Source of the DNA: a virus
Length of the DNA: 39,234 nucleotides
IMG/VR virus record: IMGVR_UViG_3300022602_000218
Coordinates: 1-39,234 of that record
Direction: 5' to 3' (one strand)
Made by a program: the position numbers and the translations under genes. This document shows positions 7,349 through 32,863 of the stretch, piece after piece. Under the pieces are notes generated by a model. It saw only the letters and a list, made by a program, of their open reading frames with translations. It was not told where the DNA came from and did not search any database. Every line of letters begins with the position of its first letter. Positions within the stretch are counted from its first letter, which is position 1.

Positions 7349-7369
7349 CCCGATAATTCCTTATTTTAA

Positions 7370-7377
7370 TATTTATC
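7370..7377 (-). promoter_or_regulatory. T4-type late promoter motif (GATAAATA) for the 662-aa fibre gene
   Basis: On the minus strand this reads GATAAATA, a 7/8 match to the T4 late consensus TATAAATA. It lies 22 nt from the ATG at 7348, in the 34-nt gap after the 447-aa gene. The same ATAAATA core occurs at a similar distance before four other genes here. No -35 element is expected for this class. Confidence 0.6.
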
Positions 7378-7382
7378 TTACT

Positions 7383-8726: not shown

Positions 8727-8748
8727 GTCTTTCTTCTTTAATATTCAA

Positions 8749-8756
8749 TATTTATG
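8749..8756 (-). promoter_or_regulatory. T4-type late promoter motif (CATAAATA) for the 447-aa fibre gene
   Basis: The minus strand reads CATAAATA, 7/8 to the T4 late consensus, 23 nt from the ATG at 8726 and just beyond the stop of the 562-aa gene. It belongs to the set of five similarly placed ATAAATA sites. Confidence 0.58.
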
Positions 8757-8763
8757 TTACAAA

Positions 8764-10452: not shown

Positions 10453-12713
10453 TATAGTACACCAGTAAAGATTATGTAATTTACAGTTTGATAAGGATTC
10501 ATAATAGTAATAGGTTGGCTAGTAGTGTTTGTACCAGCTATACCAGAACTACTAGGTAAACCATAACCCTGTGTGCTCGGAGTTGAACTACTTGTAACAT
10601 TTAGTCCAAGACCAGGATCAGCATTGTTAGTTTGTTCAGAATCGTTAGTAGGGTTTGGCAAACCAACAGCAAAATATTGATGAGAACCTGTGTTCAAACT
10701 GTGTTTGTGATCTGGTAAGTTTGCTGTTTGAATTGTAACTGTGTTTGTTCCAGAAGATGCACCTATTACATCTGCTGTAGGATCAGTTACACGGTTAGCA
10801 GAACCTCCGCCTGCCGATACTTCAATATTAGCATTTGAGGAAGAAGGAACATACAACTCGTTATTCATATTGTCAGCACCTAATGGGAAACGTCCTCTTA
10901 GGTCTGGTAATGCAAAAGTTTGTCCGGCACCACCAATCAATAACGATGAATCTTTATATGTATATCCAATAACATTATACAACTCACTGTAGATTGATTG
11001 TAAAACTTCGCTGCCATCACATAACAAATAACCAGCTGGTAATGATTTACCTAATCCAACAGATCCTGCCCATGGTAAAATTGTTCCCACAGGAACAGTT
11101 GCCACATTTTTAAGAAAATCTGATTTAGCTTGTTTTAATAATGTAGTATTTGATTGCCCTATACGATTAATAATTATTTCATCTGTATTGTAAGAATCAT
11201 ATGCTGCTGTTTTATTATTAATAAAATCTGTGCTTAATGTTGTATTAAATGTTACTTGTCCATTAGTTGTTTGTCCATTGAAAGTAAATCCAACAGAATC
11301 AACTACGTCACCTGCAATAGTAAATCTAGTAGAAGATGATAATTTAGATGCTCCACCGTTTACATTACCTGATAACGATCCTGTAAAATTACCATTAAAT
11401 GTTCCGACAAAATTCTGTGCGTAAATATTTCTAAATTGTTGAGTAGCTGAACCAATATCATATAGTTGGTTAGCAGTAATATCTCCAACTGTTTTACCTG
11501 GCAATATAACTGCTCCAGCGGTTGGTACATTCGAAATTAAATTGTTAACAAACACATTTCCGTAATTTGTAACGTTACCGCCAAATGTAGATGTTAATGC
11601 AACACTTAATCCACCCTGTGTAACAATACTACCAGTTGCTGTTGTAAATGTTGACCCAGAAGTATAAGAACTATCAGTAGTATCTGTTATAGTCAATGTA
11701 CCTGGTATACTGTTTGTAGTATCAGGTCTAATAATAACTGTACCTAAAACATCTAATGTAGCAGTAGGAACTGAATTATTATAACCTACTCCAATTTTTC
11801 CGTTTGGTGAAAGAGTTAAAACACTATTTTTTGTTGTAGAATTGGTTAAAGTAAAATTAACACTACTGCTAGAGTTTATATTTGTAAAGACAACAGAACT
11901 TCCCGATTTACCTATACTAAAACTTGCATCACCACCAAGAGTTAAACCGCCATCATTTTGAATAGTTAGTTTACTATTAGTTAAACTTGCTACATCTGAT
12001 CTTAAAAAATTGCTAGATGATACAGCGGCGTTATTAATTAGTAGAGCGTCTGCAGAACTTGCTGTACCCCAAAATCTTGTTGCTCCAGTGCTAGCATCAA
12101 GTGTGCTTAAATTGACACCTTCATTAATAGTAGCAAAGCCAGGTATTGGAGTTTGAGGTGTAAATGTATCTTTACTTATAATACAAATTCTATAACTGTT
12201 TTCCGTTGATCCAGACGAATACATAGAGATAACAGAATGTGCAACTGGTGGACTTGCTTTGTCAACAATTTCTTCTACAATTGGTCCTGTAGTAGATCCT
12301 TGACTAAATTGCGGTCCAACTAAAATCCAAGCACTTCCAGAGAACAAATATAACTGACTATTTGTAGTATCTACCCATAAATCTCCAACTGTACTAGCTT
12401 CTATACTAGGAATGTCAACAGATGAAGATCGTTTTAATGCGCCGGCTTCGACCCATGTCGTGCCATCATATACTTTAAGAAGGTTACCAGCATTATCATA
12501 CCATAATTGTCCTTGAACTGGGTTAGCAGGAGCAGTAGGTGCTGCAAAATTTTCTAGCAAGTGTAATAAATCTCCAGAAATAACTGGTGCATAACCGTTG
12601 TAGTTTTGTCCTACAAAAGTAATGCTAGTCTGGGTATTCAAACTCTGATCATTAACAACAATTGCTGGTTTGCTAGGATTTTTTGATTCTGTATAATTTA
12701 CTGAATATGGCAT
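10452..12713 (-). CDS. Short tail fibre-like protein with tail-collar domain and His-rich receptor-binding tip (753 aa)
   Basis: The N-terminal shared module is divergent but clear (FVGQNYNGYAPVISGDLLHL near 33-52, GQLWYD at 68-73, GDLWVD at 110-115). The central shaft includes DIGSATQQFRNIYAQNFVGT. From about residue 540 there is a tail-collar domain: VPVGTILPWAGS, then LPAGYLLCDGSEV, then FALPDLRGRFPLGAD. The motif LPDHKHSL places His at 669 and 671, the same type of HxH element that binds zinc in the T4 short fibre gp12. The protein ends QPITIMNPYQTVNYIIFTGV, a typical collar-protein ending. T4 gp12 is 527 aa, so this one has a longer shaft. It is the first of the four paralogues, starts 11 nt after the 202-aa gene (RBS GGAGAG), and is probably the gp12-like irreversible-binding fibre. 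Confidence 0.85.
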   Translation of the reverse strand: MPYSVNYTESKNPSKPAIVVNDQSLNTQTSITFVGQNYNGYAPVISGDLLHLLENFAAPTAPANPVQGQLWYDNAGNLLKVYDGTTWVEAGALKRSSSVDIPSIEASTVGDLWVDTTNSQLYLFSGSAWILVGPQFSQGSTTGPIVEEIVDKASPPVAHSVISMYSSGSTENSYRICIISKDTFTPQTPIPGFATINEGVNLSTLDASTGATRFWGTASSADALLINNAAVSSSNFLRSDVASLTNSKLTIQNDGGLTLGGDASFSIGKSGSSVVFTNINSSSSVNFTLTNSTTKNSVLTLSPNGKIGVGYNNSVPTATLDVLGTVIIRPDTTNSIPGTLTITDTTDSSYTSGSTFTTATGSIVTQGGLSVALTSTFGGNVTNYGNVFVNNLISNVPTAGAVILPGKTVGDITANQLYDIGSATQQFRNIYAQNFVGTFNGNFTGSLSGNVNGGASKLSSSTRFTIAGDVVDSVGFTFNGQTTNGQVTFNTTLSTDFINNKTAAYDSYNTDEIIINRIGQSNTTLLKQAKSDFLKNVATVPVGTILPWAGSVGLGKSLPAGYLLCDGSEVLQSIYSELYNVIGYTYKDSSLLIGGAGQTFALPDLRGRFPLGADNMNNELYVPSSSNANIEVSAGGGSANRVTDPTADVIGASSGTNTVTIQTANLPDHKHSLNTGSHQYFAVGLPNPTNDSEQTNNADPGLGLNVTSSSTPSTQGYGLPSSSGIAGTNTTSQPITIMNPYQTVNYIIFTGVL

Positions 12714-12724
12714 TTATTCTCTCC

Positions 12725-13333
12725 TTAAGCTGACACTAGGCCAGTTAAACTTTGAATACGTACCGTATAATCAATTTGAACTAAACGATTCAAACTCTTT
12801 AATACAGGATGGAAAACTACATGAGTTAGTAACAATGTAGAACCGTCAGCATTAAGACTTTGTAATCCTAATTCATCGAACACATAAGCAGTATCACCAT
12901 TTGCAGTAACATCGTATGCTTCTTGTCCGCTTGGCTCACCGTAATCTAATAAACAAGTAACAAATACATCAGTATAACTGTTACCAGTAGTATGGCGTGT
13001 TTCCATAAAATTTCTTGTAGGATCTAAGTTAGTACTAGAATTTTGATTCACTACCTTACTATAAGTTTGATTGTACAAACTAGCATTAACGCCGGAGGTG
13101 TTAGGTGTTAAGTAAGTAATAATTCCGGTAGGATCGATACTAGTTCCGCCATTTCCAAAAGCCATATTATAGATAAAGCCTTGTCCACTATTTGCAAGGC
13201 TGTTTGCTAATGCTACACTGATGTTTTCATAGTGAATAGCATTACGTTTATTAATATAAACTTCTTTAGAAATTGGATCGTGGATCTTAATATGACCCTC
13301 GATATGAATCCCAGTTACGTCTTTAGTCTGCAT
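12725..13333 (-). CDS. Unknown structural-region protein (202 aa)
   Basis: I do not recognise this protein. It begins MQTKDVTGIHIEGHIKIHDP, has FIYNMAFGNGGTSIDPTGII near residues 53-72 and ends with VQIDYTVRIQSLTGLVSA, a strand-rich, fold-like composition without repeats. It lacks the fibre module and has no catalytic motif, signal peptide or membrane helix. It sits between the giant protein and the fibre cluster and has its own late-promoter motif and an AGAGAG ribosome-binding site. That position fits a connector between the baseplate rim and the fibres, or a chaperone for fibre assembly. In T4 the same interval holds gp8, gp9, gp10 and gp11, but I see no sequence link to any of them. The coding assignment is firm, the function is not. 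Confidence 0.75.
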   Translation of the reverse strand: MQTKDVTGIHIEGHIKIHDPISKEVYINKRNAIHYENISVALANSLANSGQGFIYNMAFGNGGTSIDPTGIITYLTPNTSGVNASLYNQTYSKVVNQNSSTNLDPTRNFMETRHTTGNSYTDVFVTCLLDYGEPSGQEAYDVTANGDTAYVFDELGLQSLNADGSTLLLTHVVFHPVLKSLNRLVQIDYTVRIQSLTGLVSA

Positions 13334-13369: not shown

Positions 13370-16300
13370 TTAAGTAGTAGTTTTATAGTCAGAATACCAA
13401 ATACCAGAAGCTGATTTAATAAATTCTGCAATAATACTATTGTCATATAACACGTTTACACTGCTGTCCCACTCTTTTCCTATTCTTCTAACTACAGTTA
13501 CCTGTGTACCAGTAGTTAATGGGTTAGTTAAAGTAATAACTGGAGTAGTTTTATCAATACTAAAATCAGCAGGGAAACTTACATCTCCTGCAGGACTGTA
13601 AGGTGCATTGTTAACATTAAACACACTATAAGCTGATTTTTTCAAACGTATATTCTCTACAAAGAATTGCCAATATTCAGCTGAATCATCTGAAAAATTA
13701 GTTGAACTAGTATGATTTTCTATACAACGGTACGTATATTGACCAACAGTTACAATATTACCTACTATATAACTAGTATCTGGTAACCAACTTCCAGAGT
13801 TATCATAACCTCCTACAAATACTTCTATAGCATTTACATCTGTTGGAACAAAATCAACATTAACAGTTGTTCCGCCTACTGAAACAACTGTCTGAGAAGT
13901 AACTGTATCTTTGTAAGGAATTGTTTCGCTAGCACCAATGCCTTGTACTTTTGCACCAGCTTTATTCAAATTATAAATGCCAGTGCCCAATGTACCTCTA
14001 CGCAACTGTCCTAATACATTACCAACTTTTGTAAAATATTCAATTCTTTCTCCACGTATTTCGATAACACCGGGAATATAATTGTTGTTTGTTAAATTAG
14101 GAATGTCTAATTGACTTGCATCTACAACTGTTATTGTCGAATCATTCCAATGGAGATCCTGCGCCAATGTTGTTTGTTTATTTGCATTTAATCTCTTATA
14201 AGTAACACGATTTAACATATCCTTAAACTGCATATAAGCAATACCTGTTTTTAGTATGTTATTGCCAAAAGTTATAATAGATATTTTATCACCTGCTAGT
14301 GGCGGTCTGGCTAACTGAACTGTTATAAGATCGTCATTTAATTTGTAATCAATGGTAGGTGTTAATAAATTATTATTTTGAACTAACCATACATAATTAG
14401 TGTCAACGACTGATCTGTCTAACGTAATAATTCCGCCTGTAATTTGTTTATATTCAAAATATTTTATAGAATTTGGAGTGGAAGTTATTGCCGAAGCAAC
14501 TGTTACTTCCGTTCTTTCGATATCTAAATATGTATGGTCGTATGAACCAATAACTTCTACAGTATGTGTATTATCGTATGCCTGAGTAAAAGTTATTTGT
14601 CCTGATACTGGATTATAAAAATAACCGTTTTCACTTGTCACACTAATAATAAGTTCAGCTCCAACATTTGTTGTATAAACTGTTTGGTCAATTAAAACAG
14701 TCAACCCAGCCATATTGACTGTGTAATCTGTGTTTATAGTTAACAACTTACCAGCAACATAAACAAATATGTTAGCAACAGATGCACCATAAGGTTCGAC
14801 TCTTTCTGAATCAACGGTGTACAATAGTTGATTATTTTGAATTGTATAATAACTGTTAATAGGTGCCGATAAAATTGTATTATCAACTCTAACAATCATA
14901 CTTGTTTCATTTGGTAAACTTGTGCCTATTGGATATGTTAAGTTATAAGTTAAACCACCATTTGTAGCAACTGTTTCAGTATGAGTAATACTGAATGTTG
15001 GTTGATTTCCATTAACAATTACAAAATTAATTAAAGCATTTAACGAAGGAGCAGATGTAAATCTAATTCCAACTACTCCGGCTGTTTCATAAGTACTGTC
15101 CGTCTTAAACAATAAAGGAGACACAACTGTACCATCTACATATACTATAGATGTTATAGAAGTTTCCCATTTTGCATTAGTTATAAATTCCAATGTAGTA
15201 CCATCGCCTACAAAATAATCTAAATCTAATATATTTGATCCACTAAATCCAATACTATAAATTGTAACTACTTGTCCTGCTAATGGAACAGAACTAAAGA
15301 TAACATGTTTAAGTCTGTAATCTATACTATAATCAGTATTAAAAGTTTTTATTAAACCATTGACTTTTACAATAACTGCCTGTTGGCTGTTAGGTTGTTG
15401 GGAAATATTGAAGACAAATGTTGTGCCATCTCCGGTATAATTATCAACTTTAATTGTAGAATTACTTGCGTAAGGTCTGTCAAAAACTTTAATAGCAACG
15501 GTATCGACAACTTGTCCAGGCACAACTTCTTCGGGTGCTGGACTGTTTGTTGCAGTTGTAAATCCGTCTCCGTCAATAATGATATCATCAACAGCAATAC
15601 CAGTTGCTGTTGAATATACTCCTAAAGAATTTGCTGTTGTTCCGCCAGATAAACTTGTATCATAATCTATATTTTTAGGAATAGTACTACCATCGCTAGT
15701 AGATTTTCTTATAATAAATTCATCACCGTCAGATACTTCAAATCCATTTACGCCAACCGGTAAAGTAAACACAAATGGACTAGTTACTACAACAGGAGTT
15801 ACAATAATAGCATTAGAATTTGTCGGAGATCCTGTTATTGGAACATAATCTCCTGCATCTAATCTTACAGGATTTAATTGACCTGTGAGATTTAATACAA
15901 CATTTCCAGATGGTAAATTGTTAGTAAGAGTTACAACTCCGCCGCTTGATATAACGAGATCAATTGGTTGTACTAAAATTCTTGTAAAGGATATATTAGT
16001 ATTTGCTGTAAGATTTACATAAAGTATATTGCTAATTTTTACATGATAACTATCAATAATTTCAGTAATTATTGTACCGTAAACTAAAGAATCGGCAGTG
16101 CTACATGTAACTGAGTTTCCAGGATATAAATTTGCTGTACTTGTTACTGCAAGAACATCACTACCGGCAAAATTGAAACTAAATGTTAATGTTTCACCAT
16201 TAACAGGTGTAGTATCAGGTATTGCACTTAAAGTTAACACGTTTCCATTTATAGATTTAACAATTTGATTACTGACAAATCCTGAACCAGATACTGCCAT

Positions 16301-19300
16301 ACCTACTTGGATGCCTGTTGCAGAACTTACTGTAATTAAATTAGTATAACTTCCAACTTGTTGATAAGTTGCAGTAACTGATGTAGTTTCAACAGTTGTA
16401 ACTATAGATGCAGTAATAGGTTCTGCAAAAATACTGTAGTTAAAATCTAATTGATTACTGTATTCTCCTGAAGAATTATCATAAGATGTTGTATAATTTT
16501 CAATATAATAAATGTTTATTTCAGTGCCTGAAGTCCATGTACTCGGGAACGGAACGCCAGTAATAGGGAAAGTATATGTTCCTGCCGCAACTGTAACAGT
16601 GTAATCATCAAATGATGAATCATAATTATCCCATGAACCTGTATAGAACGGTGCAGAGCCCCAACCGCTAGAAATATCGAATCCTAAGCCGTCTACTATC
16701 ACTCCTCCGTAATCTACGCCATTCAACAACTGTGCTAGATCATTGCCTAATTGACCGACACCTGGTTTATAATAATAATTAATTCTATCAATTGCATTAA
16801 GCATCGATATATCAATCATATAAGTTACAACTATTGTACCAACTACAGTTGAAGAAAATGTTATTCTTCCTGTATATTGTGTATATCCAGACACCTTAGT
16901 ACTAACGGTAGTAAGTGTGTATAATTCTCTTAAGACTGGAACACCGTTTACTGTTACGCTAGATTGATTAATTTTAATATCAGGTGCCCATTTTAATCCA
17001 AACTGCAATCCACCTGAAGTTGTAATTGTTTCTACTTTTTTCAATTGTGTGTTATTAACAACTGTAGCAGTACGATCAAATGCTAATTCTATTAAGTTAG
17101 AACGTACAACACTATCACCAATAATTGCTATAGCAGTAGCAGCTACACCAGTAGTATTAAGCCCGCCAGTAATTGTAACAGTCGGAGCAGACAAATATCC
17201 GCTACCTGGTGTCATTAATACAATTCTGTTAATTGAACCATTACTATAAAATGCCTGAGCAGTTGCACCAGAACCAGAATTACTTGTTATAGTTACTGTG
17301 GGAGTACTAATATATCCAGAACCTCCGTTTACTAACACTAACTCAGTTACACTGAATCCAACATTATCTAACCAGAATTTCCATGGATATGTTTGAATAG
17401 CAGTATCTCCTGCCTCTATCTTTCCATTCACTACAGAAGTTTCTATAGATACAACTTTGCCGTTTTCGTATACAGGTTGTAAATCAAAATCAGTAATTGG
17501 TAATGATGCAGGATCTAAACTGGTATAATCGTCAATGTATTCTCTTACTTTTGTTCTGTATGGTTTAACTTCTGCCACATACTCTTCAAAATTACTTAAA
17601 TTATCAACAGGATATGTAACAGGTTGATCCAATGCACCAACATTGTGTCTTGCTTTTACAAAACTTGTCTTGAAAATCCAATCAACATAAATTTGTTCAC
17701 TGAACGCATATCTAACACTATCAAAGAATAAATTCAAGTATTCTTGAACAAATGTATCATTTCCAACAAGGATCTTATTTTTAATTGTGTTAAGGATAAT
17801 TCTTAATTCAATACTAGAATTGTTGTCATAGCCTATGCCATCAAAAATATCCGAATCAAGCCCTTCATTAGAAGTAATCATTGCATACAATGAAGAACTA
17901 AATTGTATTGTTCCGTTTTGTATCCCGACTACTTTGTAAGTCTGTGTCCAGTCAACTGATGTAGAATCAGCATATTTTTCTAATAACAACCAACCGCCTG
18001 AATTACCTGACAAAACTTTTACAAGTTCTCCCATAGCAGGAGCGATTGAATTCAAATCTACAAATGTGTTAACCAAATAATCTGCAGCAGTAAATTGACT
18101 ATAACCTGTAGAATACCAATCTACATACGACCAGTAGTTTCTAACATCATATGTTTTTGTCAATGTTCTGTTCCAACTCTTAGAAGTACTATCGTATGAG
18201 TATATACTCCAGTTACCGTTTGCTCGACTATCACTAGAAACTAAAACATTATACGGTGTGGTATAAACATTTATAAATTCCAAATCAGCATCAGTTGACA
18301 CTTCTTCATTCCATAATCCAGAAGTAGCAGTCGGTGGAACATCGTATGTTTCTAATGCTGATATATCATTAGAATATGCAATATCATACTGTATTAAGAA
18401 TTTATTAATAGTTTCAAAGAATTCTTTTAATGCTTCAAATCTATTAACAAACATACTTTGACGTGGTCTGTTTTCAACACCGTACCACAATTTAAGTGGT
18501 AAGGAAACATCAGGCACTAATTTGCCGTTCATGTCAACTCCGCATAAACTATCAAACCATTTTTGTTCAATAGCAGATGGTAAAGTAGTGTTAGGATCAT
18601 TGCTGATGATTTTCCACTGTGTATGTATATTTTGATCTGTTTTATCAATAGTCCAATATTCTATGCTTAACACAATATTTGTATCTGATAGATATTTTGA
18701 AGCATTTGTTAAACTAAATGTATTGGTACCTGTAATTGCAAGATATGTATAATCCTGTCCTTGAGGATCAGCAATTAGTTTTGAAACATCACTTGCTGAC
18801 ATATTTCGACCTAGTGCATCAGGAATTAAAACTTTATTTTTAACCCAGAAATAATAGGTATAAACAGGTGTGTTAGTTGTAGTGTTTATAGTATATTTTG
18901 TTGAATACACAGAATTTGAATATAAACTTTTACCACTAATACCGATAGCTAATCCTGATACTGTATCAGCTAAGGCATCCCACTGAGCCGGTGTATAAGA
19001 AGATTCTACCCATTCATAAATGTCTACACTAGCACCAGTTGCTAAAGTGTTCCATGTATTTGTTCGATAAACAATATCTTGGTCATAACTATTAACAAAT
19101 TTTGCAGTTGATAAATTCCACCACAAGGTTCCTACTTGTGCTGAACTCCAGTTATTACCAGTATTGACATTAGCTGGAACTGTGGCATCTGTGTATTTTG
19201 TAGTATCATAATACGAATATACAGCAGGATCGTAGAAAGATTTATATTTTATTTCTTCTTCGGCAGGTCCTGGGATTTTTCCTTGCAACGGATCTATAAC

Positions 19301-22300
19301 ATCTAAGTACGTTACTAGCTTGCCTAATTCTTTATTATATAAGAAGGCTTTTTTTATCTTTGTAATATCTGGTATTATAATCTGTGAATTAATAATTGAC
19401 CAAGAGAATGTATTTCTTGTTTTAGAATAATTCCAAATTTGTCCGACTGTTAATCCATTTGTCGAGTACTGTGGTGCTCCTACAAAAATTTGATTTGCAC
19501 CTACACCAAAGCCAACTCCATATCCATCAAATTCTTGATTAGTAGTGGGTAATGTTTCGCTGAATACCCATTTAGTAGAGTAACGATCGTATACATCTAC
19601 GCGACCTGTAGCAGGATTAAATGTTACAAATTGTGTTGCTTCTTTATCAAAAGTTGTAGTATTGTTGTCAAATGTACTTGTTTCGGTATTTGTACCGTTA
19701 AGGCTGTAAACTACCAATGTACTTGAGTTGTTCATGAACGCAATTTTATTTCCAAACAATCCTAATTGTTCAGGTTCATGTGCAACTACTGTTTGGGTTG
19801 CAGTATAACTATTTGATTCATATGAATAGATTGTTACGCAACCTTGCTTTTTATATAACGAAGAACTATACAAATCATCTGATATTGCTAGATAAATTCC
19901 GTCATCGCTAACAGCAATACTTCTACCAAAATTAGTATCAGTTCCAGTAAGTGTTTGTGTAGGAGAACTTAGATTAAATCCGTTTCCAGAATTTTTATAA
20001 ACAAATACTTGACCAGTAGCTGTACCAGCACTAGCTGTTATAACCAATGTTGAGTTATCTGCACTAACTTCGATGTTATTACCGTAATTGGTTCCAGATG
20101 TACCTGTTAAAATAGATCCATAAGCCCAGCCAGGTGATGCAAATGTTATTGCTCCCGATGGTGTTGAATCTGGTGAGGCACTAATTGTTAATGTGGTTAA
20201 GTTTATAACAGCAAATACAATCTGTTCGCTTGTAAACCCAGTTCCAGTTATAGTCATACCAGGGTGTATGCCAACTGTTGATGTTACTACTAACGTAGTG
20301 CCTGAACTTCCTACAGGGTTATAAGAAGTAACAGCATGCACAATTGAAGATGTAGTTGAATAATTCAATGTGTAAACATTATTAGAACCAGAAGCAGTTA
20401 CATATAATACATTGTTGCCAAACGATATTGTTGATCCAAAGTATTCATTGTTTTGAGGAACTGGACTTAAGATAGTATCTACAAAGTTATAATTGCCTAA
20501 TGCATCTTGTTTATATAAAGATACAACACCTTGATTAACTAACGCAGAATTGAATCCAGTGCTGTCGACTGCAATATAAGATGTTTTTTCCCATGCAACT
20601 GATCCGTTAACTGATATAGTTAATATTGTTCCATTAGTATTAACAGATTTAACTGTAATAAAAACATCATTACTTGAATCTGGATTAACTCCTGTTCCTC
20701 CAATATTATAGCCAGATATTTTTATAACATTGCCTACATAATAACCAGTTCCGCCACTATTAATAGTAACATGATATCCTGTAACAGACGTTGTAACATT
20801 AAATGTAGCTGAATTAGCAACATTAACAACTGACGGAACATTGATAGCGTTAACTGCTGGAGCATATACTTTAGTACCAGCAGAATTTGTATAAGTGTTT
20901 GATGCTTGGCTAGATGTAAAAGTTGCTATTCCTGTTGCAGATGTAATTGTGTTAACAGTAATTAAAATATCATTTACACCATCTACTCCGCCAACAGATG
21001 ATCCTAAAATAGTTAAAACATTACCTGGACTATAACCTACTCCGCCTGATACAAGAATTGTATTATATACACCAGGACTTGTTACATTTAAGGTAAACAA
21101 TGCGCCCGATGCTATGGAAGTAGTTGTACCAGAAATACTTGTGTATAAAGGTAATAATGTATAATTTTGATTAATACCTGTTACAATACCATACACTGAT
21201 GGTGAAGTTAATATTGAATTAGTATTAAATTGTACTGAAGAATTGGTACAACCAGATACTGAAAACGTTCCATTATATTCAGAATCTACACCTGTAAACC
21301 CTGCAATTACAATATCTGATCCTATAGCAAATGGTGCAGATGTTTGTGCAGTGAATGATATAGTTGCAGTATAATTATTTTCAACAGAAGGTGCAACTAC
21401 TGATGTTATATTAAAAGAAATATATCCAGTTGGGATCTTGTAGTATACTGAATTGTAAACAACAATATCTTGTGAATAGTACGTTGTAGAAGAATTATAA
21501 GTTCCTTTATATCTTGAAATAACATGACTTGCACCAGGAGAACCAACAGCAAGCCATTTATTGTCAGCAGACATTGCTAGAACTGAGGATATTACACTAG
21601 TAGGATTACCATTAATAGACAACACATTAATACTGAAACCAGAACCAGTTCCACCTACATTTGCAGGATTAACACCGAGAGTATCTCCTAATGCATAACC
21701 AGTTCCGCCAAATACTAATTGTGCAGCAGTAACTTTACCATTAGTAACTGTGATATTTGCAGTAGCACCAGTACCAGTTCCGCCTGTTAATGGCACTTGA
21801 TAATAGATATTAGATCCTGATAGCGGAGTATATCCGGTACCTCCATTATTTTTAAGTCTGATACTAAATCCTGAACCAGATCCTCCAAGATATGTATTTG
21901 AAGCTGTTAAAATATCTCCATTTGAATATTGATTATTGATATTAATTAACTGAACATTGGATATTTGTCCGCTTGCATTTATAGTAATATTTGCAGTAGC
22001 TCCGGTACCAGTACCACCAGTCAACGGCACATTTGTGTACACTGGAGGAACATTACTTAAAGCAATATATCCAGAACCTTGATGGCCAGTATATGATAAA
22101 TCTACTACATTAATTAATTCAGCTTGTACAAATTCTACAATTGATCCAGTTGTAGGATAAGTTTGTATTGCATTTGAATTAATTGATTCAGAAATAACAG
22201 GTGGTACAATAACTTGTGTATCTGTCCATGTGTTTTTAGACACAGGTTTTGAATATACTAAAACTGTACCATCAGACATTGATGTAGTAAAAATTATACC

Positions 22301-25300
22301 ATCTTTGCTAACTGAAATAGCTCTACCTTTGTTTAATTGTGCAACTGTATTTGAAAAATTAATATTAGAAGTAGTATATGCAGGATTATATTTCCAAGTT
22401 GCCCACTGGCCATTTCCTTGGTCATCGGTCCACAATAATTCGCCAGGTAGCAGTTGTGCTGGCAATACACTGTCTATATTATCGATAGAATTTGTACGTT
22501 GGCTTACAAAGGTATAGATTGTAATATTTGCAAAATCTTCGGATGTTAAAGAAGGAAATGCAGAAATAGTAGCCGCTAATTTTATAGTATTAAGCGTTAC
22601 AGAAGTTATTTGATAAAAACCGTTAATTACAGTTTTAGCTATATTAGTAGAATTTGTCGGTGGAAGATTTATATTAACACCAATCCATGTACCTACTGTC
22701 AATTTTGGCAAAACTGTAAATGTTATAGTAAGTACAGAATTAGAATAACTTACATTATTAACAGAAAGGTTTGAATCTGTATATCTGTAGACATTCCAAA
22801 AATCTGGAGGATTATCAAATACGCACCAAACATATGCTCCGTTGTTAAATTCAGTTATAGCAGGATGTATTCTGTTACCGCTAGAATCTAAATCATTAAT
22901 GTTTGACAACTTTCCTAAACTAATAAACACGTCGCTTGCGTTAACATATCCCGCAGTACGTAGTAATGGAGAATAATATGTTAATGCTGGAAATGGATTA
23001 GAATTATAATCTGTCGGTTTTAGATAAACATCTTTATAAACTTGTTCTAATATAAAAGAATTTGTGTTAGAGATTGACTGCTGTGTAAGCAAATATCCTT
23101 GCGGATTACTTCTAATTATATTTTCATCTATAATAAATTCAATCTGTTGATAGGCATTGTTGGCACCATATTGTCCAACACGAACTGCCCATTCTTCGTA
23201 GAATGTTAAACTTTCTTCTGCATCAGATGTTAATACTCCAAACAGATTATTAAGAACATTCTGTGTACCTTTATCACGAATCATACCTTGATAAAACTTA
23301 AATTCACTTACAGGATCTTGAATAATATTATCTAAGTATTGACGCTTCTGATAGCCGATTAAATGCTGAGCAACTGATTGCTGGGCACTATCAAAACTAT
23401 CTACATCTGTACTATAAAAATCAACAAACTGTGTTGCAATATTTGTCCAGTTTGGTAAGATTTGTGATTTAGGTTTATTAGCTAATTGTGACCAATCGCT
23501 GGTTGTGAACACTGCTGCGCCTGGCAGGAATTTATTTGCACTATAATAATAACCTTGGAAAGACACAATATCACCCATGTTATAATCTTGCCAAGGTTGC
23601 CAATTATTAATTGTTGCGGCATCGAAAATAAATCCAGGAATGTCTAATCCACCGTACCATCCTGTTGTAATATATCCAGAAACTTTAATACGTTGTTGTC
23701 TATAACCACTTGAAAGATTATAAATTACATCGTTGAATATTGTGGAATTATTAATTGTAATTACATGTTCGTGCTGAATAAAATAAAATGTAGCAGAATA
23801 GATACTAGAATTATCAGTAGTTGTATAAGTTACAACATTTTCAGATCTATAAGAATCTAAATGTGCAGGGTCAACAGGAGTACCATCAACTTTGAAAATT
23901 TCATATTGATAAAAACTATTTGTAACACTATCAACTACAGCTAAAGGTGCATAGAATTTAATTAATTTTGCAGAAGGACTTAAACTAATCACACTACTAC
24001 CTACATTGCTTAATCCAGGTAATAAAGAATATTTTGTCGAATCAAATACATCGGCAGGTGGAAGATTATAGTTTGAACTATAATAACTTCCATTATAACG
24101 TACTACTGCACCATACAATACAGGTTGCCCAGGTGCCCAGTCTGACCATTTATCTTGTCCAACATTCCAATTTTGTGTAGTCCAGAATAAAAACTCTCTT
24201 CCACTTTGATCCCAGTTAGATACAGATTGTAAATTTTCATTGAACTCATCAAATCCAAATCCTTGATCTTTTAACCATTCACCATAGCCGATTATAAAAT
24301 CAAATGTATCTTGAATATTATTAAATTCAAATCCATAAGGAATTGTTATAGGTTTTTTTCTATTCCATGCAGTTCTTAATGTTGCATTTTGCCCACCGTT
24401 AACTGGTAAACTAGGAATTGATCTAAAATAGTTTGTTGCAAAATTATCAGTAGAAGTGTGAGCTACGGTTGTAAGATAAAACCCGCCCTCGTACTGAACA
24501 ATCGAACCTACTGTATATTGTTCATTACTAGTCCATACAGAAAAAGCCTCTGATATACCACCAACATTAATAGTGCTGCCAGATTGTGTATAAGGATAAT
24601 AAACAAAATAAGGTTGTGTTTGACTATATCCAGATACTTGGAATCCGTCATTTAGTTTTGTAATTATAATTCCGCTATAAGTTATTTTCTTAATAGGGCT
24701 AGAACTATTCAAAAATACAGTATAATCTTCATTGGGTATAAAGACATTTCCAGTACTTGCAGGTGTTTTACTTTCTAAAAGTAAACTAAATTGATCTTGA
24801 TTTGTAAATGCACCTAATCTGTAACTTAACTGAACATTCATTGTTTGAAGGTCAGTTTGATATGCCGCATAAGATTTTTGATTGTTACTAAAAATCTGAT
24901 TGAATATTAAATTAACAATATAATTTACAACGCCAGCTGTTTGTAGTCGTGTTGTACTAGAATAAGAACTAGTAATAACAAGATCTTGCGGTGTAATTCT
25001 TAGATTAGTATCTGAATAAACCAATTGTCCTGCAAGATTTCTTACTATGCGTGATCTATCAAATAACACACCGAATGTACTTGCAGGTTTTAACAGCATA
25101 GCAGTTATTAAAACGCTAAACGGATAGTAACTACTTCGTCTCCAAGATGCTTCAACTGGGCCGACATCACCAAACACAAAATTGAAATCTATACTAGGTG
25201 TAATTGTACCTGTTGATAATCCAGATTGCAATGGGCTAATTAAATTGCCAGACTCGTCTACAGGAATATGATCAGCAAGATATGGTCTTACATAACCTTC

Positions 25301-28300
25301 TTTGACAAATACAGGAACACCTGGTTCTCTTATTATACCTTTTGTTAAATCGTCCCATAACACCAAGTTATCACTAGTATAAGGTGCAGGGCCGTATACA
25401 CTAGTCCACCAACTTGGTTCAATACTAAATCCTAACATTTCCCATGGACATAAATTAGGACGGTCTGTATCTAATAGATATCTATAAACACCTCTCCAAT
25501 ATCCAGGTATTGCAGTTCCACCAGGTCCTGAATTTTCAGAATAATTGTATGTAAACGTATTGTTAATATCGTAATTTAATTGTTCTGTAAAATCTACACC
25601 AACTAAACTTGCCCATCTATAAAAATTAGCAGATAATACTTCATTAAATTCTGTTAAAGAATAATCTGTTTCTCTTGCATAACTAGGAATGATTTTTTGA
25701 ATATCAAAGATTTCTGGATTATACGCAACTTTTATATTGTTAAAAATTCTAGTTTCTAATTCTAAAATTAATGCATCTCTATAATCATTATAAGCAAGTA
25801 CTTGGCTTCCATCATGTCCTTGGATCATTAATTGAGGATTAATTAATGTTGTATCTGTATACATCTGTGGAACATAAGCAGGCCATATACCTAACTTTGT
25901 TGGAGTTTCTGGAACAAAACAACCATCTGTGCTATCGTATTCAATAGTTGTAATTACATCGCCAACAGACAATACAACATTGGAAGTTATTACGATAAAT
26001 GATTGAGTGCTAAATGTATAATCTCTACCATATGCTAGTTGAGTTCTGACTCCGCCAGTAGTATGGTATATACCTACTGCTTTGTTAGATAACTTATCTA
26101 AAGTAAAAACAGTTGATAAAGGATATGTTTTAATTCTACTATCAACAACTTTAAGTTCTGTAGTAACATTGGCTCCGTAAGGAACCATATCACTAAAATA
26201 ATAAGGAGCTACATTTGGTTTATTAGCATTAATTTTTTGTAAAATTAAATTAACCATAGTGACTGGATCAGCATCAACACCTAGTCCACTTGCTATAGCT
26301 ATAAACTCTTTCTTAAAACTATTATAATCTTCTCTAGCTTGCTGTATTGCTTTAATAACATTATTAGTTTCAGATGTTATGTGATAGTTAGATAAACTAA
26401 TAGGTCCACTATGTTGAACAAATTTAGTTCCATATTGAGTTATATTACCTAAATCTCTGATGTTACTATCGCCTGGGAAATTACCAGTATATGCTCCACC
26501 AACATTATAAATGTTATCAACTATACTGTTTACGTGATCCGAAACTTCACCTAAGGTAAAATCTCCTGTAGATTGATTTAATGGATTGTTTTGTAAATTT
26601 AACGGTAGTTCATAAAATCCTACATTGTTAATTGTAGTTTCTTTTGGCGGATATACTTTAATTGTAACAATGTCTGTTAGGGCAACAGGAGTATTAAACA
26701 CTACTGTGTAGTATACTGAATTTTTAACTAGACTCCAAAGATTAGTTGCAACTCTTATTGAGTTAACATATACTCGAACATTCTGTTTAGGCAATGTAAA
26801 ACTAGAAGAATGTTCATTGAAAATATTAATATTGAAATTATTAGTTTTATTTGATTTCTTAAAAATGCTAACAACTGCTTGAGTGTCGGTCACATTACAA
26901 GTTTGCCATCCATTTACATAAACAGAGTCGCCATTATATAGTTGTGATTCTAAAAATCCTTTAGAAATATTAGTTGTAATTATATTAGCGGATTCTTTAT
27001 ATTGAAATGTATCTGTTGCTAAATTAAAGTTAAAAACTATATCGCCAATATTAGTAACATTCTGATAAGACAAGGCAAATCCTAACTCTGTATCAGCATT
27101 ACCTGTGCCAATTTTATAAGAAAATAGTTTTGTTCCTTTGAATGTAGAACCATAATATGTTGTAATATCACCAAAACTAATCTTATTAGAATCTACCACA
27201 TCGAACAAAGGAGCTTGGTTAGCTTTAACTTTTTGTTGTGCAGATACCCATGTTGTACCGTTGAACCAGAACATTAAACTTTGATTAATGGTACCTTGTG
27301 TAATAAGAACACACTGGTTAACTGTTGGTACAATTGTTTCAACTAAGTGAATTTGTAAATTTCCGGTTCTATCAACATCGATGAACTCGACAGTGTACAC
27401 ATTATTTGCAACCAATGGATTAGTATCTGCTGTAAAAATTACTCGCTGACCAGCAGTTAATGATACTCCATCAACTGTATATCCAAGTTTACCTTCAACT
27501 TTTGTAAAAGCATCTGTTGTAAAATTATCTATAACATCTATATCGACAATTGCATTAGTTCCAAAATTATATAATTTTAAGTCTGCTTCAAATTCAATAA
27601 TAGGACGTATAGCTCTAGCATTTTGATTTAAGCTAGGAACATCACCATTATAAGTTGCGCTTTTATTAATAACATCTTGATGAAACCAACGATTGTATCG
27701 ACTCCATGGATTGTGATCTCGACTAGCTCTGTTTATAACTAGATAATCTTTTGTACCTGCATATGCGGTTGCATCACTAAAAGGACCACTATCAAATTTT
27801 GTTGAATCGTATTGATCCAACTCATCTATCGAATAAGGACTTACTATTTCAAGAACAGATGACTGTATTAATTTTATAGCAGATCCTACTCCTTCAACAT
27901 AATACTCACCGGTAGCATAAGAAGTAGGTGTGACATTTCCAGAAAACGATACTTTCATACCGTTGCTCAATGCAGTGCCGTCGGGTAATATATATGACTG
28001 TTTGCCTAATACATCTGCTGCTACATCAATATTTGAATTTTCAGTTATATCAAAAATCTCAATAATTCCACCTAAATTAATATCAGTGTCGCTTTGATAA
28101 TACAATAGTCTCGGAGCATCTTCTGGAATTAAAAAAGTTATAGTACCGGCAGTTACAGAATAAGAATCGATGGTAGGAATAGAATATATAGTGGCAGGAT
28201 TAATACTTCTACTAGTTCTAAAGTTAAAAGGATTGCCAGGGCTATTAATTCTAAATGTGTATGTTTGACCTCTATATAATTTTAATGTTGGGTCAGGAGA

Positions 28301-28852
28301 TCCACCGTCTGGTGTGAAAACATATTGATTATTTGTTCCTTCATTTTCTATAGTTACCGAGTATGTACTAGTAATTGCAAGCTGTTGTCCTCTAATTACA
28401 ATAGTTTGTGGACCATAAGGAAGCCAATAATAATTCTGAAAATTTACAAATTTATCCCAATCAATATGTGGATCCCAACTATAAAATTCTTGTGAATTTA
28501 GACGTTGGTGGTCTGTTGTATTGCCTCCAAATACATTAATCTGATTAATATAATCTTGATAATCTTTGAAAAAAGTTACATTATTCAAAGAATCTTGAAT
28601 TACAACACCCGGAGCTAGTTGATAATGTTGACGTGAGTTAGTCGGCGCAGTTACATAAACATCTGTTGATTTTGCCGCTTTTGCATTTATATCACCTATA
28701 TAACCTGTTACTTTTGTCAGTGTTCCTGGTTTAAGTAATTGGTCTACAGTTGATTGTAAAAACTTTTTATTAGAAGTAGTTTGATAAAATTTAGGTAATA
28801 AATTTGCACTTAAACCTGCACTACCTTCTGGGTTGTTTACTGAATTTGCCAT
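13370..28852 (-). CDS. Giant multidomain tail/baseplate structural protein (5160 aa)
   Basis: A single uninterrupted frame of 15.5 kb, starting at an ATG that overlaps the gp6 stop (TAATG). Rough layout: 1-1300, aromatic-rich globular part (YSWDPHIDWDKFVNFQNYYW near 125-145, PWEMLGFSIEPSWWTSVYGP near 1130, WRRSSYYPFSVLITAMLL near 1235). 1430-1790, three CBM5/12-like Trp/Tyr modules. 2170-3140, FG-GAP-like beta-propeller blades (FGRSIAVSDDGIYLAISDD near 2970) interrupted by Gly-rich repeats. 3420-3810, a conserved-looking alpha/beta part (RPRQSMFVNRFEALKEFF; VEFMK-like sequence is absent, but KARHNVGALDQPVTYPVDNL and EVKPYRTKVREY are present). 3850-4900, beta-sandwich repeats. 4895-4975, IEIRGERIEYF and LRRGTLGTG. 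I have seen such motifs in large structural proteins of marine T4-like phages. Its slot directly after gp6 is that of gp7 in T4 (1032 aa), so a wedge or rim role is inferred, possibly replacing gp7/gp8/gp10. It is not a tape measure: it is beta-rich and without long helices. Confidence 0.85.
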   Translation of the reverse strand: MANSVNNPEGSAGLSANLLPKFYQTTSNKKFLQSTVDQLLKPGTLTKVTGYIGDINAKAAKSTDVYVTAPTNSRQHYQLAPGVVIQDSLNNVTFFKDYQDYINQINVFGGNTTDHQRLNSQEFYSWDPHIDWDKFVNFQNYYWLPYGPQTIVIRGQQLAITSTYSVTIENEGTNNQYVFTPDGGSPDPTLKLYRGQTYTFRINSPGNPFNFRTSRSINPATIYSIPTIDSYSVTAGTITFLIPEDAPRLLYYQSDTDINLGGIIEIFDITENSNIDVAADVLGKQSYILPDGTALSNGMKVSFSGNVTPTSYATGEYYVEGVGSAIKLIQSSVLEIVSPYSIDELDQYDSTKFDSGPFSDATAYAGTKDYLVINRASRDHNPWSRYNRWFHQDVINKSATYNGDVPSLNQNARAIRPIIEFEADLKLYNFGTNAIVDIDVIDNFTTDAFTKVEGKLGYTVDGVSLTAGQRVIFTADTNPLVANNVYTVEFIDVDRTGNLQIHLVETIVPTVNQCVLITQGTINQSLMFWFNGTTWVSAQQKVKANQAPLFDVVDSNKISFGDITTYYGSTFKGTKLFSYKIGTGNADTELGFALSYQNVTNIGDIVFNFNLATDTFQYKESANIITTNISKGFLESQLYNGDSVYVNGWQTCNVTDTQAVVSIFKKSNKTNNFNINIFNEHSSSFTLPKQNVRVYVNSIRVATNLWSLVKNSVYYTVVFNTPVALTDIVTIKVYPPKETTINNVGFYELPLNLQNNPLNQSTGDFTLGEVSDHVNSIVDNIYNVGGAYTGNFPGDSNIRDLGNITQYGTKFVQHSGPISLSNYHITSETNNVIKAIQQAREDYNSFKKEFIAIASGLGVDADPVTMVNLILQKINANKPNVAPYYFSDMVPYGANVTTELKVVDSRIKTYPLSTVFTLDKLSNKAVGIYHTTGGVRTQLAYGRDYTFSTQSFIVITSNVVLSVGDVITTIEYDSTDGCFVPETPTKLGIWPAYVPQMYTDTTLINPQLMIQGHDGSQVLAYNDYRDALILELETRIFNNIKVAYNPEIFDIQKIIPSYARETDYSLTEFNEVLSANFYRWASLVGVDFTEQLNYDINNTFTYNYSENSGPGGTAIPGYWRGVYRYLLDTDRPNLCPWEMLGFSIEPSWWTSVYGPAPYTSDNLVLWDDLTKGIIREPGVPVFVKEGYVRPYLADHIPVDESGNLISPLQSGLSTGTITPSIDFNFVFGDVGPVEASWRRSSYYPFSVLITAMLLKPASTFGVLFDRSRIVRNLAGQLVYSDTNLRITPQDLVITSSYSSTTRLQTAGVVNYIVNLIFNQIFSNNQKSYAAYQTDLQTMNVQLSYRLGAFTNQDQFSLLLESKTPASTGNVFIPNEDYTVFLNSSSPIKKITYSGIIITKLNDGFQVSGYSQTQPYFVYYPYTQSGSTINVGGISEAFSVWTSNEQYTVGSIVQYEGGFYLTTVAHTSTDNFATNYFRSIPSLPVNGGQNATLRTAWNRKKPITIPYGFEFNNIQDTFDFIIGYGEWLKDQGFGFDEFNENLQSVSNWDQSGREFLFWTTQNWNVGQDKWSDWAPGQPVLYGAVVRYNGSYYSSNYNLPPADVFDSTKYSLLPGLSNVGSSVISLSPSAKLIKFYAPLAVVDSVTNSFYQYEIFKVDGTPVDPAHLDSYRSENVVTYTTTDNSSIYSATFYFIQHEHVITINNSTIFNDVIYNLSSGYRQQRIKVSGYITTGWYGGLDIPGFIFDAATINNWQPWQDYNMGDIVSFQGYYYSANKFLPGAAVFTTSDWSQLANKPKSQILPNWTNIATQFVDFYSTDVDSFDSAQQSVAQHLIGYQKRQYLDNIIQDPVSEFKFYQGMIRDKGTQNVLNNLFGVLTSDAEESLTFYEEWAVRVGQYGANNAYQQIEFIIDENIIRSNPQGYLLTQQSISNTNSFILEQVYKDVYLKPTDYNSNPFPALTYYSPLLRTAGYVNASDVFISLGKLSNINDLDSSGNRIHPAITEFNNGAYVWCVFDNPPDFWNVYRYTDSNLSVNNVSYSNSVLTITFTVLPKLTVGTWIGVNINLPPTNSTNIAKTVINGFYQITSVTLNTIKLAATISAFPSLTSEDFANITIYTFVSQRTNSIDNIDSVLPAQLLPGELLWTDDQGNGQWATWKYNPAYTTSNINFSNTVAQLNKGRAISVSKDGIIFTTSMSDGTVLVYSKPVSKNTWTDTQVIVPPVISESINSNAIQTYPTTGSIVEFVQAELINVVDLSYTGHQGSGYIALSNVPPVYTNVPLTGGTGTGATANITINASGQISNVQLININNQYSNGDILTASNTYLGGSGSGFSIRLKNNGGTGYTPLSGSNIYYQVPLTGGTGTGATANITVTNGKVTAAQLVFGGTGYALGDTLGVNPANVGGTGSGFSINVLSINGNPTSVISSVLAMSADNKWLAVGSPGASHVISRYKGTYNSSTTYYSQDIVVYNSVYYKIPTGYISFNITSVVAPSVENNYTATISFTAQTSAPFAIGSDIVIAGFTGVDSEYNGTFSVSGCTNSSVQFNTNSILTSPSVYGIVTGINQNYTLLPLYTSISGTTTSIASGALFTLNVTSPGVYNTILVSGGVGYSPGNVLTILGSSVGGVDGVNDILITVNTITSATGIATFTSSQASNTYTNSAGTKVYAPAVNAINVPSVVNVANSATFNVTTSVTGYHVTINSGGTGYYVGNVIKISGYNIGGTGVNPDSSNDVFITVKSVNTNGTILTISVNGSVAWEKTSYIAVDSTGFNSALVNQGVVSLYKQDALGNYNFVDTILSPVPQNNEYFGSTISFGNNVLYVTASGSNNVYTLNYSTTSSIVHAVTSYNPVGSSGTTLVVTSTVGIHPGMTITGTGFTSEQIVFAVINLTTLTISASPDSTPSGAITFASPGWAYGSILTGTSGTNYGNNIEVSADNSTLVITASAGTATGQVFVYKNSGNGFNLSSPTQTLTGTDTNFGRSIAVSDDGIYLAISDDLYSSSLYKKQGCVTIYSYESNSYTATQTVVAHEPEQLGLFGNKIAFMNNSSTLVVYSLNGTNTETSTFDNNTTTFDKEATQFVTFNPATGRVDVYDRYSTKWVFSETLPTTNQEFDGYGVGFGVGANQIFVGAPQYSTNGLTVGQIWNYSKTRNTFSWSIINSQIIIPDITKIKKAFLYNKELGKLVTYLDVIDPLQGKIPGPAEEEIKYKSFYDPAVYSYYDTTKYTDATVPANVNTGNNWSSAQVGTLWWNLSTAKFVNSYDQDIVYRTNTWNTLATGASVDIYEWVESSYTPAQWDALADTVSGLAIGISGKSLYSNSVYSTKYTINTTTNTPVYTYYFWVKNKVLIPDALGRNMSASDVSKLIADPQGQDYTYLAITGTNTFSLTNASKYLSDTNIVLSIEYWTIDKTDQNIHTQWKIISNDPNTTLPSAIEQKWFDSLCGVDMNGKLVPDVSLPLKLWYGVENRPRQSMFVNRFEALKEFFETINKFLIQYDIAYSNDISALETYDVPPTATSGLWNEEVSTDADLEFINVYTTPYNVLVSSDSRANGNWSIYSYDSTSKSWNRTLTKTYDVRNYWSYVDWYSTGYSQFTAADYLVNTFVDLNSIAPAMGELVKVLSGNSGGWLLLEKYADSTSVDWTQTYKVVGIQNGTIQFSSSLYAMITSNEGLDSDIFDGIGYDNNSSIELRIILNTIKNKILVGNDTFVQEYLNLFFDSVRYAFSEQIYVDWIFKTSFVKARHNVGALDQPVTYPVDNLSNFEEYVAEVKPYRTKVREYIDDYTSLDPASLPITDFDLQPVYENGKVVSIETSVVNGKIEAGDTAIQTYPWKFWLDNVGFSVTELVLVNGGSGYISTPTVTITSNSGSGATAQAFYSNGSINRIVLMTPGSGYLSAPTVTITGGLNTTGVAATAIAIIGDSVVRSNLIELAFDRTATVVNNTQLKKVETITTSGGLQFGLKWAPDIKINQSSVTVNGVPVLRELYTLTTVSTKVSGYTQYTGRITFSSTVVGTIVVTYMIDISMLNAIDRINYYYKPGVGQLGNDLAQLLNGVDYGGVIVDGLGFDISSGWGSAPFYTGSWDNYDSSFDDYTVTVAAGTYTFPITGVPFPSTWTSGTEINIYYIENYTTSYDNSSGEYSNQLDFNYSIFAEPITASIVTTVETTSVTATYQQVGSYTNLITVSSATGIQVGMAVSGSGFVSNQIVKSINGNVLTLSAIPDTTPVNGETLTFSFNFAGSDVLAVTSTANLYPGNSVTCSTADSLVYGTIITEIIDSYHVKISNILYVNLTANTNISFTRILVQPIDLVISSGGVVTLTNNLPSGNVVLNLTGQLNPVRLDAGDYVPITGSPTNSNAIIVTPVVVTSPFVFTLPVGVNGFEVSDGDEFIIRKSTSDGSTIPKNIDYDTSLSGGTTANSLGVYSTATGIAVDDIIIDGDGFTTATNSPAPEEVVPGQVVDTVAIKVFDRPYASNSTIKVDNYTGDGTTFVFNISQQPNSQQAVIVKVNGLIKTFNTDYSIDYRLKHVIFSSVPLAGQVVTIYSIGFSGSNILDLDYFVGDGTTLEFITNAKWETSITSIVYVDGTVVSPLLFKTDSTYETAGVVGIRFTSAPSLNALINFVIVNGNQPTFSITHTETVATNGGLTYNLTYPIGTSLPNETSMIVRVDNTILSAPINSYYTIQNNQLLYTVDSERVEPYGASVANIFVYVAGKLLTINTDYTVNMAGLTVLIDQTVYTTNVGAELIISVTSENGYFYNPVSGQITFTQAYDNTHTVEVIGSYDHTYLDIERTEVTVASAITSTPNSIKYFEYKQITGGIITLDRSVVDTNYVWLVQNNNLLTPTIDYKLNDDLITVQLARPPLAGDKISIITFGNNILKTGIAYMQFKDMLNRVTYKRLNANKQTTLAQDLHWNDSTITVVDASQLDIPNLTNNNYIPGVIEIRGERIEYFTKVGNVLGQLRRGTLGTGIYNLNKAGAKVQGIGASETIPYKDTVTSQTVVSVGGTTVNVDFVPTDVNAIEVFVGGYDNSGSWLPDTSYIVGNIVTVGQYTYRCIENHTSSTNFSDDSAEYWQFFVENIRLKKSAYSVFNVNNAPYSPAGDVSFPADFSIDKTTPVITLTNPLTTGTQVTVVRRIGKEWDSSVNVLYDNSIIAEFIKSASGIWYSDYKTTT
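19430..22320 (-). other. FG-GAP/beta-propeller-like region inside the giant protein
   Basis: Residues about 2177-3141 contain blade-like repeats of the form FG..I..S.DG..L.IS......G.V.IY: GRAISVSKDGIIF, VLAMSADNKWLAVGSPGASH, NYGNNIEVSADNSTLVITAS, FGRSIAVSDDGIYLAISDD and VGFGVGANQIFVGAPQYS. These match integrin-alpha-type blades. Other modules are inserted between the blades. The blade count of six or more is by eye. Confidence 0.6.
21751..22030 (-). repeat. Two-copy Gly-rich coding repeat (PLTGGTGTGATANIT)
   Basis: Nearly the same stretch is encoded at about 21981-22030 and again at 21751-21795, about 235 nt apart. Each copy gives PLTGGTGTGATANIT and is followed by a variable strand and a GGxGSGFS element. 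Related units (GGTGYYVGNVIKI near 20740, NGGSGYISTPTVTIT near 17310) occur elsewhere in the same protein. The synonymous differences show that this is an old protein-level duplication, not recent DNA copying. Confidence 0.7.
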
Positions 28853-32419: not shown

Positions 32420-32863
32420 TTACTGGACTGAAGTTGCTAAACCGTTCGCTTGATCGAACTGCAACTGTAAATTTTGCTGTATATTGTAAATCAAATAAGT
32501 CAAAGTACATTCTATTTGTATACCTGTATCATACGGAGTAACTAACAGATTTGTTACTGTAACTCGAGGATCAGCATTAAAAATCTGATTAACATTCTTT
32601 ATTATCAAGCTCTGAACTTCAGGAGTCATTGGTTCAAAAATTAAATCCCAAATAACAGTTCCATAGTTAGGATTCATTAATCTTTCACCTTGGCGTACAT
32701 AAAAACTGTTAATTATATCTTGCTTAATTAACTCAAAATCATATAAGGCAAAGTTCTGTGTACTAGTGTTAACAGTACTAAACCCTCTGTACATTTGTGG
32801 TCTTATAGAACCAGTACTAGCTGGTGTATTAACAACTGGTTTGTGATATATTGAAGTTGCCAT
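32420..32863 (-). CDS. gp25: Baseplate wedge subunit, gp25/GPW family (147 aa)
   Basis: gp25 is the wedge protein that nucleates sheath assembly and belongs to the GPW/gp25 (lysozyme-like fold) family found in all contractile injection systems. The family core is visible: YDFELIKQDIINSFYVRQGE at 41-60, RLMNPNYGTVIWDLIFEPMT at 61-80, then the helix VQSLIIKNVNQIF and the strand pair DPRVTVTNLLV. T4 gp25 is 132 aa, and the excess here is a short N-terminal tail (about residues 1-35). The start is set by GGAGCG, which follows directly on the stop of gp5; the gap is 9 nt. The neighbours gp5 and gp6 confirm the assignment. Confidence 0.93.
   Translation of the reverse strand: MATSIYHKPVVNTPASTGSIRPQMYRGFSTVNTSTQNFALYDFELIKQDIINSFYVRQGERLMNPNYGTVIWDLIFEPMTPEVQSLIIKNVNQIFNADPRVTVTNLLVTPYDTGIQIECTLTYLIYNIQQNLQLQFDQANGLATSVQ

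Follow-up and report, generated by a model that had tools for sequence, protein, structure and literature searches.

A modular 5160-residue protein at the gp7 position of a T4-like baseplate operon in a relative of RaK2-type jumbo phages

Introduction

The wedges of contractile tails are built on a heterotrimer, (gp6)2-gp7 or (TssF)2-TssG (PMC6300606), and the locus described here raises the question of what a single protein of 5160 residues represents when its gene stands directly after gp6, where a T4-like baseplate operon would carry gp7. We use the term window for the whole stretch of DNA analysed, which is the entire IMG/VR fragment of 39,234 bases; separate gp7, gp8 and gp10 genes in the same genome could therefore be sought in relatives only. 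Here, we consider the reality of the giant frame and its neighbourhood, the family to which it belongs, its anatomy, and the readings that its position and modules allow.

The giant frame and its neighbours

The giant is encoded by a single uninterrupted frame of 15.5 kb on the minus strand, with an ATG start and one terminal stop, and has a calculated mass of 564 kDa. Its ATG overlaps the gp6 stop as TAATG (in the context ..CAAATTAATGGCA..), so that both the open frame and its TAATG junction with gp6, as given in a preliminary description of this DNA, are confirmed. A chance frame is ruled out, as the remaining five frames across 13370-28852 contain 276-612 stops each and the probability of 5160 open codons at the window's base composition is ~10^-163. 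An assembly artefact is ruled out as well, since the same frame recurs in 27 of 27 close IMG/VR contigs from many metagenomes, measuring 4841-5659 codons from stop to stop. The genes around it are as follows.

10452..12713, minus strand: fibre protein, 753 aa, with a Collar domain (E 2e-13)
12725..13333, minus strand: phrog_11259 protein, 202 aa, located after the giant in a large part of the family
13370..28852, minus strand: the giant, 5160 aa
28852..32373, minus strand: gp6-like wedge protein, 1173 aa (phrog_10646, E 8e-289; phrog_219, E 5e-21)
32420-32863: gp25
32873-34591: gp5-like hub, with OB-fold, DUF2345 and trimerisation matches
36920-37219: gp53

As first described, the giant stands where a T4-like baseplate operon would have gp7. 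In a Pfam scan, the gp5-like hub showed no lysozyme domain. The 753-aa protein matches T4 gp12 by blastp (E 2e-4) and Gp10_C below threshold (E 0.014), and by these similarities it is classed as a gp12/gp10-C-like fibre protein separate from the giant. The earlier statement that none of gp7-gp11 is recognisable elsewhere in the window was too strong for this weakly gp10- and gp12-like gene.

Further genes of the window deserve mention in their own right. Four consecutive fibre genes (5360-12713; 662, 447, 562 and 753 aa) have a common N-terminal domain of ~80 aa, also present in PA5oct gp358 and gp359, and their products probably share a docking site on the baseplate. The 662-aa protein carries a C-terminal match to a Peptidase_G2-like self-cleaving chaperone (E 6e-5). 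Positions 2-5338 encode a protein rich in Ser, Thr and Gly; it matches no family and, truncated by the window end, measures at least 1779 aa. A divergent late sigma factor gene (38279-39106; gp55-like, phrog_12791, E 2e-72) heads the baseplate operon, an arrangement also found in RaK2 and PA5oct.

Family and occurrence in virions

Over its conserved blocks the giant is homologous, by sequence comparison, to PHROG 10938 ('virion structural protein'), of which it is a long member: its first 1300 aa match with E 1e-155, and the following 2600 residues match in two slices with E < 1e-73. Orthologues lie directly after gp6 in Escherichia phage 121Q (gp582, 3323 aa), Klebsiella phage RaK2 (ORF070w, 3326 aa), Pseudomonas phage PA5oct (gp355, 3857 aa), Agrobacterium phage Atu_ph07 (gp180, 4449 aa), Sinorhizobium phage Phosso (4555 aa) and Vibrio phage 2.275.O (3771 aa); the exception in gene order is Salicola phage SCTP-2, with gp6 ~90 kb away from the orthologue (3807 aa). 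More than 570 IMG/VR stretches also encode relatives of the giant. Given the PHROG 10938 match, the orthologues after gp6 and the IMG/VR relatives, we place the window's phage, which is uncultured, within or next to the RaK2-like jumbo phages. An NCBIfam search with the giant returned no match, and a search of the literature on the largest phage proteins turned up nothing useful.

Other very large genes occur among these phages. Next to its family member, SCTP-2 carries another giant gene (3096 aa; L087 29272-38562), and elsewhere in related contigs very large frames of 4892, 2849 and 4042 codons (G015 C1 ~78,500-86,100 and G017 C1 ~49,300) show weak matches to the giant's tail.

The proposal that the giant is a virion protein was borne out for its orthologues by mass spectrometry (MS). 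In phAPEC6, gp245 (381.88 kDa) was detected in virions with 17 unique peptides and 7.6% coverage and is listed beside the baseplate wedge protein gp244 (PMC7247149), while CBB_236 yielded 21 peptides by virion MS and is listed beside the baseplate wedge protein CBB_237 (PMC5259590). Both were taken as orthologues by size, neighbourhood and tblastn matches to both phages. Additionally, PA5oct gp355 is annotated as an ESI-MS/MS virion protein. A search for a solved baseplate structure of any relative found none; the phAPEC6 tail is known at ~25 A only (PMC7247149).

Conserved blocks and variable stretches

Blastp and family alignment resolve three conserved blocks in the giant (residues ~13-891, 976-1960 and 3140-3830), with variable stretches between and behind them.

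26180..28816, minus strand: conserved N-terminal block, residues 13-891 (family alignment and blastp)
28049..28540, minus strand: phrog_677 match, residues 105-268 (E 1.2e-11)
22973..25927, minus strand: conserved core 1, residues 976-1960 (family alignment, blastp)
19463..22855, minus strand: variable middle insert, residues 2000-3130, Gly/Ser/Thr-rich (length comparison, composition)
17363..19435, minus strand: conserved core 2, residues 3140-3830 (blastp to all isolates, alignment)
13373..17365, minus strand: variable C-terminal tail, residues 3830-5160 (length comparison; a separate gene in contig G030)

The N-terminal block is matched by blastp in 121Q, RaK2, PA5oct, Atu_ph07, SCTP-2, Phosso and Vibrio 2.275.O. 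Within it, residues 105-268 match only the C-terminal part (262-410 of 412) of phrog_677, a 'baseplate wedge tail fiber connector', and the two probably have a beta domain in common, which may be cupredoxin-like. Orthology to gp9 on the strength of phrog_677 was rejected, as the gp9-like N-terminal part of that profile is unmatched. Residues 950-2000 gave an AlphaFold2 model with a pLDDT of 81.5, and searching PDB sequences with profiles of core 2 and of the N-terminal block gave no match. Across 36 members, the aligned core 2 is nearly constant in length (252-361 aa), against 161-1104 aa for the middle and 28-1744 aa for the tail; the variation in giant size thus lies mostly in the middle insert and the tail, an observation new to this work.

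Relation to T4 gp7

One segment of core 1 bears directly on a possible kinship with gp7.

23213..23314, minus strand: helix-KGT-helix motif FYQGMIRDKGTQNVLNNLFGVL, within residues 1847-1880 (predicted helices, family alignment)

This segment resembles the gp7 motif DFYxxKGxxxSYxxLFKxLY, with the K of KGT at residue 1861; two predicted helices flank it, and all 147 giants compared have its K and G. From the sequence it is a candidate counterpart of the gp7 DFYxxKGxxxSYxxLF motif. The top match fell on KGT in several of the gp7 comparisons, and when an enlarged gp7 profile was run unguided along the profile of the entire family, this was its best landing place, at a non-significant score. The attempts to connect the giant with gp7 comprised whole-length and focused hhalign, a deeper cyanophage/T4 gp7 profile, and jumbo gp6 as a bridge. 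Hhalign gave P 0.015-0.15 for focused and P 0.17-0.5 for full-length comparisons, and a gp7 HMM scored the giants no better than reversed giants. As a positive control, the same profile method paired jumbo gp6 with T4 gp6 at 90-98% probability (90.6-98.3%). Foldseek searches with two AlphaFold models (pLDDT 81.5 and 76.2) placed no gp7, TssG or gpI among the best 50 PDB matches, the local model around residues 1800-1960 being of moderate confidence; the Tail_P2_I profile also misses T4 itself. Finally, a gp7 I-domain profile (T4 and cyanophage), which recovers T4 and S-SSM7 as positive controls, was run on seven named relatives and on three long contigs of relatives, where it gave no significant I-domain and no other convincing candidate. 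Equivalence of the giant to gp7 is plausible, resting on its position, on the lack of another gp7 candidate in relatives and on the invariant KGT.

The same results could be read as replacement by an unrelated protein, whereby jumbo phages of this group lost gp7, gp8 and gp11 and a non-homologous giant scaffold came to serve as the outer wedge. Such a history would explain why neither profile nor fold searches link the giant to gp7-gp12, even though gp6 is easily detected, and why gp8, gp11 and the gp7 I-domain are undetectable in relatives. However, cyanophage gp7 itself has diverged until a single 30-residue match to T4 gp7 is left, so that loss of signal is to be expected, and replacement sits poorly with an invariant KGT motif that has predicted helices on both sides. 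We regard it as rather unlikely, albeit a serious contender.

Carbohydrate-binding modules and beta repeats

The giant carries four CBM5/12 (chitin-binding-type) modules, the C-terminal copy falling below the Pfam cut-off, and a set of beta repeats.

24395..24547, minus strand: CBM5/12 module 1, residues 1436-1486 (PF02839, E 4.8e-10 for the slice)
23999..24151, minus strand: CBM5/12-like module 2, residues 1568-1618 (Pfam, two stretches; profile comparison)
23480..23608, minus strand: CBM5/12-like module 3, residues 1749-1791 (similar to module 2, E 2.5e-5)
17087..17359, minus strand: GSGY..PTV.I beta repeats, residues 3832-3922 (profile matches)
13697..13789, minus strand: CBM5/12-like module 4, residues 5022-5052 (Pfam E 1.2e-4, below the curated cut-off)

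Across residues 1436-1791, PF02839 scores 39.7 bits against a cut-off of 26.2, and Foldseek matches the modules there to 1ed7 and 2d49 with prob 1.00. Module 1 matches chitinase modules by profile and Foldseek and is also found in distant relatives (PA5oct, Atu_ph07 and the compact relative L129). Modules 2 and 3 are clade-specific inserts, the former absent in 121Q, PA5oct and others, the latter in the isolates. The 'lectin-like' domains of the preliminary description were thus right in kind by Pfam, profile and Foldseek evidence; its propeller was not confirmed, an FG-GAP motif search giving one repeat-like stretch at 2975 and Pfam no such match in the giant. The GSGY repeats also occur in S-SSM7 gp7 (742-822) and in phrog_460. 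An identity with phrog_460 as 'head closure Hc2' was rejected, since what the two have in common is the GSGY beta repeat and not a head protein.

These modules and repeats, together with weak profile and Foldseek matches to the tail-fibre proteins of Milano and phage 7-7-1, would suit a protein that is mainly an adhesin or fibre, encoded after gp6 by happenstance and lying outside the wedge core. Cores 1 and 2, however, are conserved across Klebsiella, Agrobacterium and Vibrio phages, unlike receptor-binding parts, and nearly every relative has the gene in its position after gp6, which makes a mere adhesin improbable.

Fusion, fission and the other wedge proteins

In one lineage the giant is divided. 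Contig G030 (L136 10691-14938 and L367) encodes it as three consecutive ORFs, the first of 2608 codons, the second of 1416 and the last of up to 1778. The stop of the first (2608 aa) overlaps a ribosome-binding-like site (TAAGGATTACCAATG), the 1416-aa ORF resembles the central part of compact relatives, and the protein of the third frame (at most 1778 codons) aligns with window residues 3536-3772 and 4927-5029. The C-terminal third can therefore be a separate polypeptide, its separate gene in one lineage being new here, and the giant is thus modular, having been fused or split in evolution.

Whether other T4 wedge proteins are contained in the chain was addressed by profile-profile comparison of T4 gp7-gp12 with the giant, which revealed no similarity in any block and recovered gp6 by the same method. 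Within the giant, searches for gp8 (PF09215 or profile), gp9/gp10 (T4_gp9_10_N, Gp10_C or profile) and gp11 (PF08677 or profile) found none of them. The profile check against T4 gp7, gp8 and gp10 suggested by the preliminary description accordingly gave no match for gp8 and gp10, and P 0.015-0.5 at best for gp7. In the relatives searched, gp8 and gp11 were detected neither fused nor separate; their absence is soft evidence, as S-SSM7 too shows these families weakly or not at all. Separate homologues of other T4 proteins do exist: the 223-kb relative G018 has a 288-aa gp9/10-N gene right after the giant (L278 2867-3733), and PA5oct gp358, which bears the note 'T4-like gp10', is a separate virion protein. 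Relatives and window together thus hold separate gp9/10-N and gp10/gp12-C-like genes, with no gp8 or gp7 I-domain found. The 288-aa gene of G018 lies between the giant and the 202-aa gene and is missing from the window.

A fusion into one chain of gp7, gp8 and gp10 (with further T4 wedge proteins), as put forward in the preliminary description, would fit the giant's place and size, and the separate C-terminal third indicates that fusion or fission has occurred, but with gp8, gp9, gp10 and gp11 signal absent from every block, gp9/10-N a separate gene in G018, and both the Collar fibre of the window and PA5oct gp358 encoded apart, we consider it highly improbable.

A working model and its implications

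On balance, we think it fairly probable that the giant is a modular baseplate-wedge protein of a RaK2/Atu_ph07/PA5oct-type jumbo phage, occupying the gp7 slot and equipped with modules of glycan-binding type. It would be made directly after gp6 through translational coupling and then built into the virion. The three conserved blocks most likely form the wedge body beside the gp6 ring, where T4 has gp7, with the long, fast-changing, beta-rich inserts lying between and behind them. The CBM5/12 modules most likely project from the baseplate and may bind cell-surface glycans, help to dock the downstream fibres, or both. If wedge symmetry sets the copy number, six 564-kDa chains would contribute ~3.4 MDa per baseplate, and the downstream 202-aa protein and fibre genes would be natural partners of the giant.

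A broader view, which we offer tentatively as possible but short of probable, is that throughout a large jumbo clade one modular giant, whether an extreme gp7 or an unrelated scaffold, fills the roles of gp7, gp8 and gp11 and carries glycan-binding modules, being freely split and fused. Such a one-chain outer wedge would unite wedge architecture and first cell contact in one polypeptide, and a gp7 role of the giant would explain how wedges assemble without a recognisable gp7, gp8 or gp11. Giants of 2500-5600 aa are a fixed feature of the baseplate operon in RaK2-like jumbo phages, as in hundreds of their freshwater and marine relatives; the PHROG 10938 family is already known, its giants being annotated as 'structural' or 'hypothetical' only. 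The natural split and the shortest members (~2500 aa) provide tractable pieces for structural work.

Comparison with known systems

The giant and T4 gp7 have in common the position after gp6 and a KGT-type motif between helices, which in the giant are predicted. They differ in that T4 gp7, at 1032 aa, is five times shorter and has no significant sequence or fold match to the giant. We know of no CBM5/12 modules in T4 gp7.

Closer in size is the gp7 'baseplate wedge initiator' of cyanophage S-SSM7 (SSSM7_101, 3007 aa), which resembles the giant in its place after gp6, its giant size and its GSGY repeats, and which upholds the earlier statement that very large genes stand at this place in marine T4-like phages. 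It differs in having a recognisable gp7 I-domain motif, whereas the PHROG 10938 giants show no significant match there. S-SSM7 encodes two giants of 3007 and 3001 aa, both labelled gp7 (L197 9562-28656), and the I-domain motif was found in the first only.

A protein of the giant's own family has already been deposited, without functional annotation, from an uncultured Caudovirales phage (A0A6J5L0K2, UniProt/BFVD, 'YHYH domain-containing protein'), and is 57% identical over ~800 residues of core 1. The giants of the PHROG 10938 isolates have the conserved blocks (~23-38% identity by blastp), the place after gp6 and the nature of a virion protein in common with the window protein, and differ in length (3323-4555 aa versus 5160 aa), the latter being longer because of its middle and tail inserts and its extra CBM5/12 modules.
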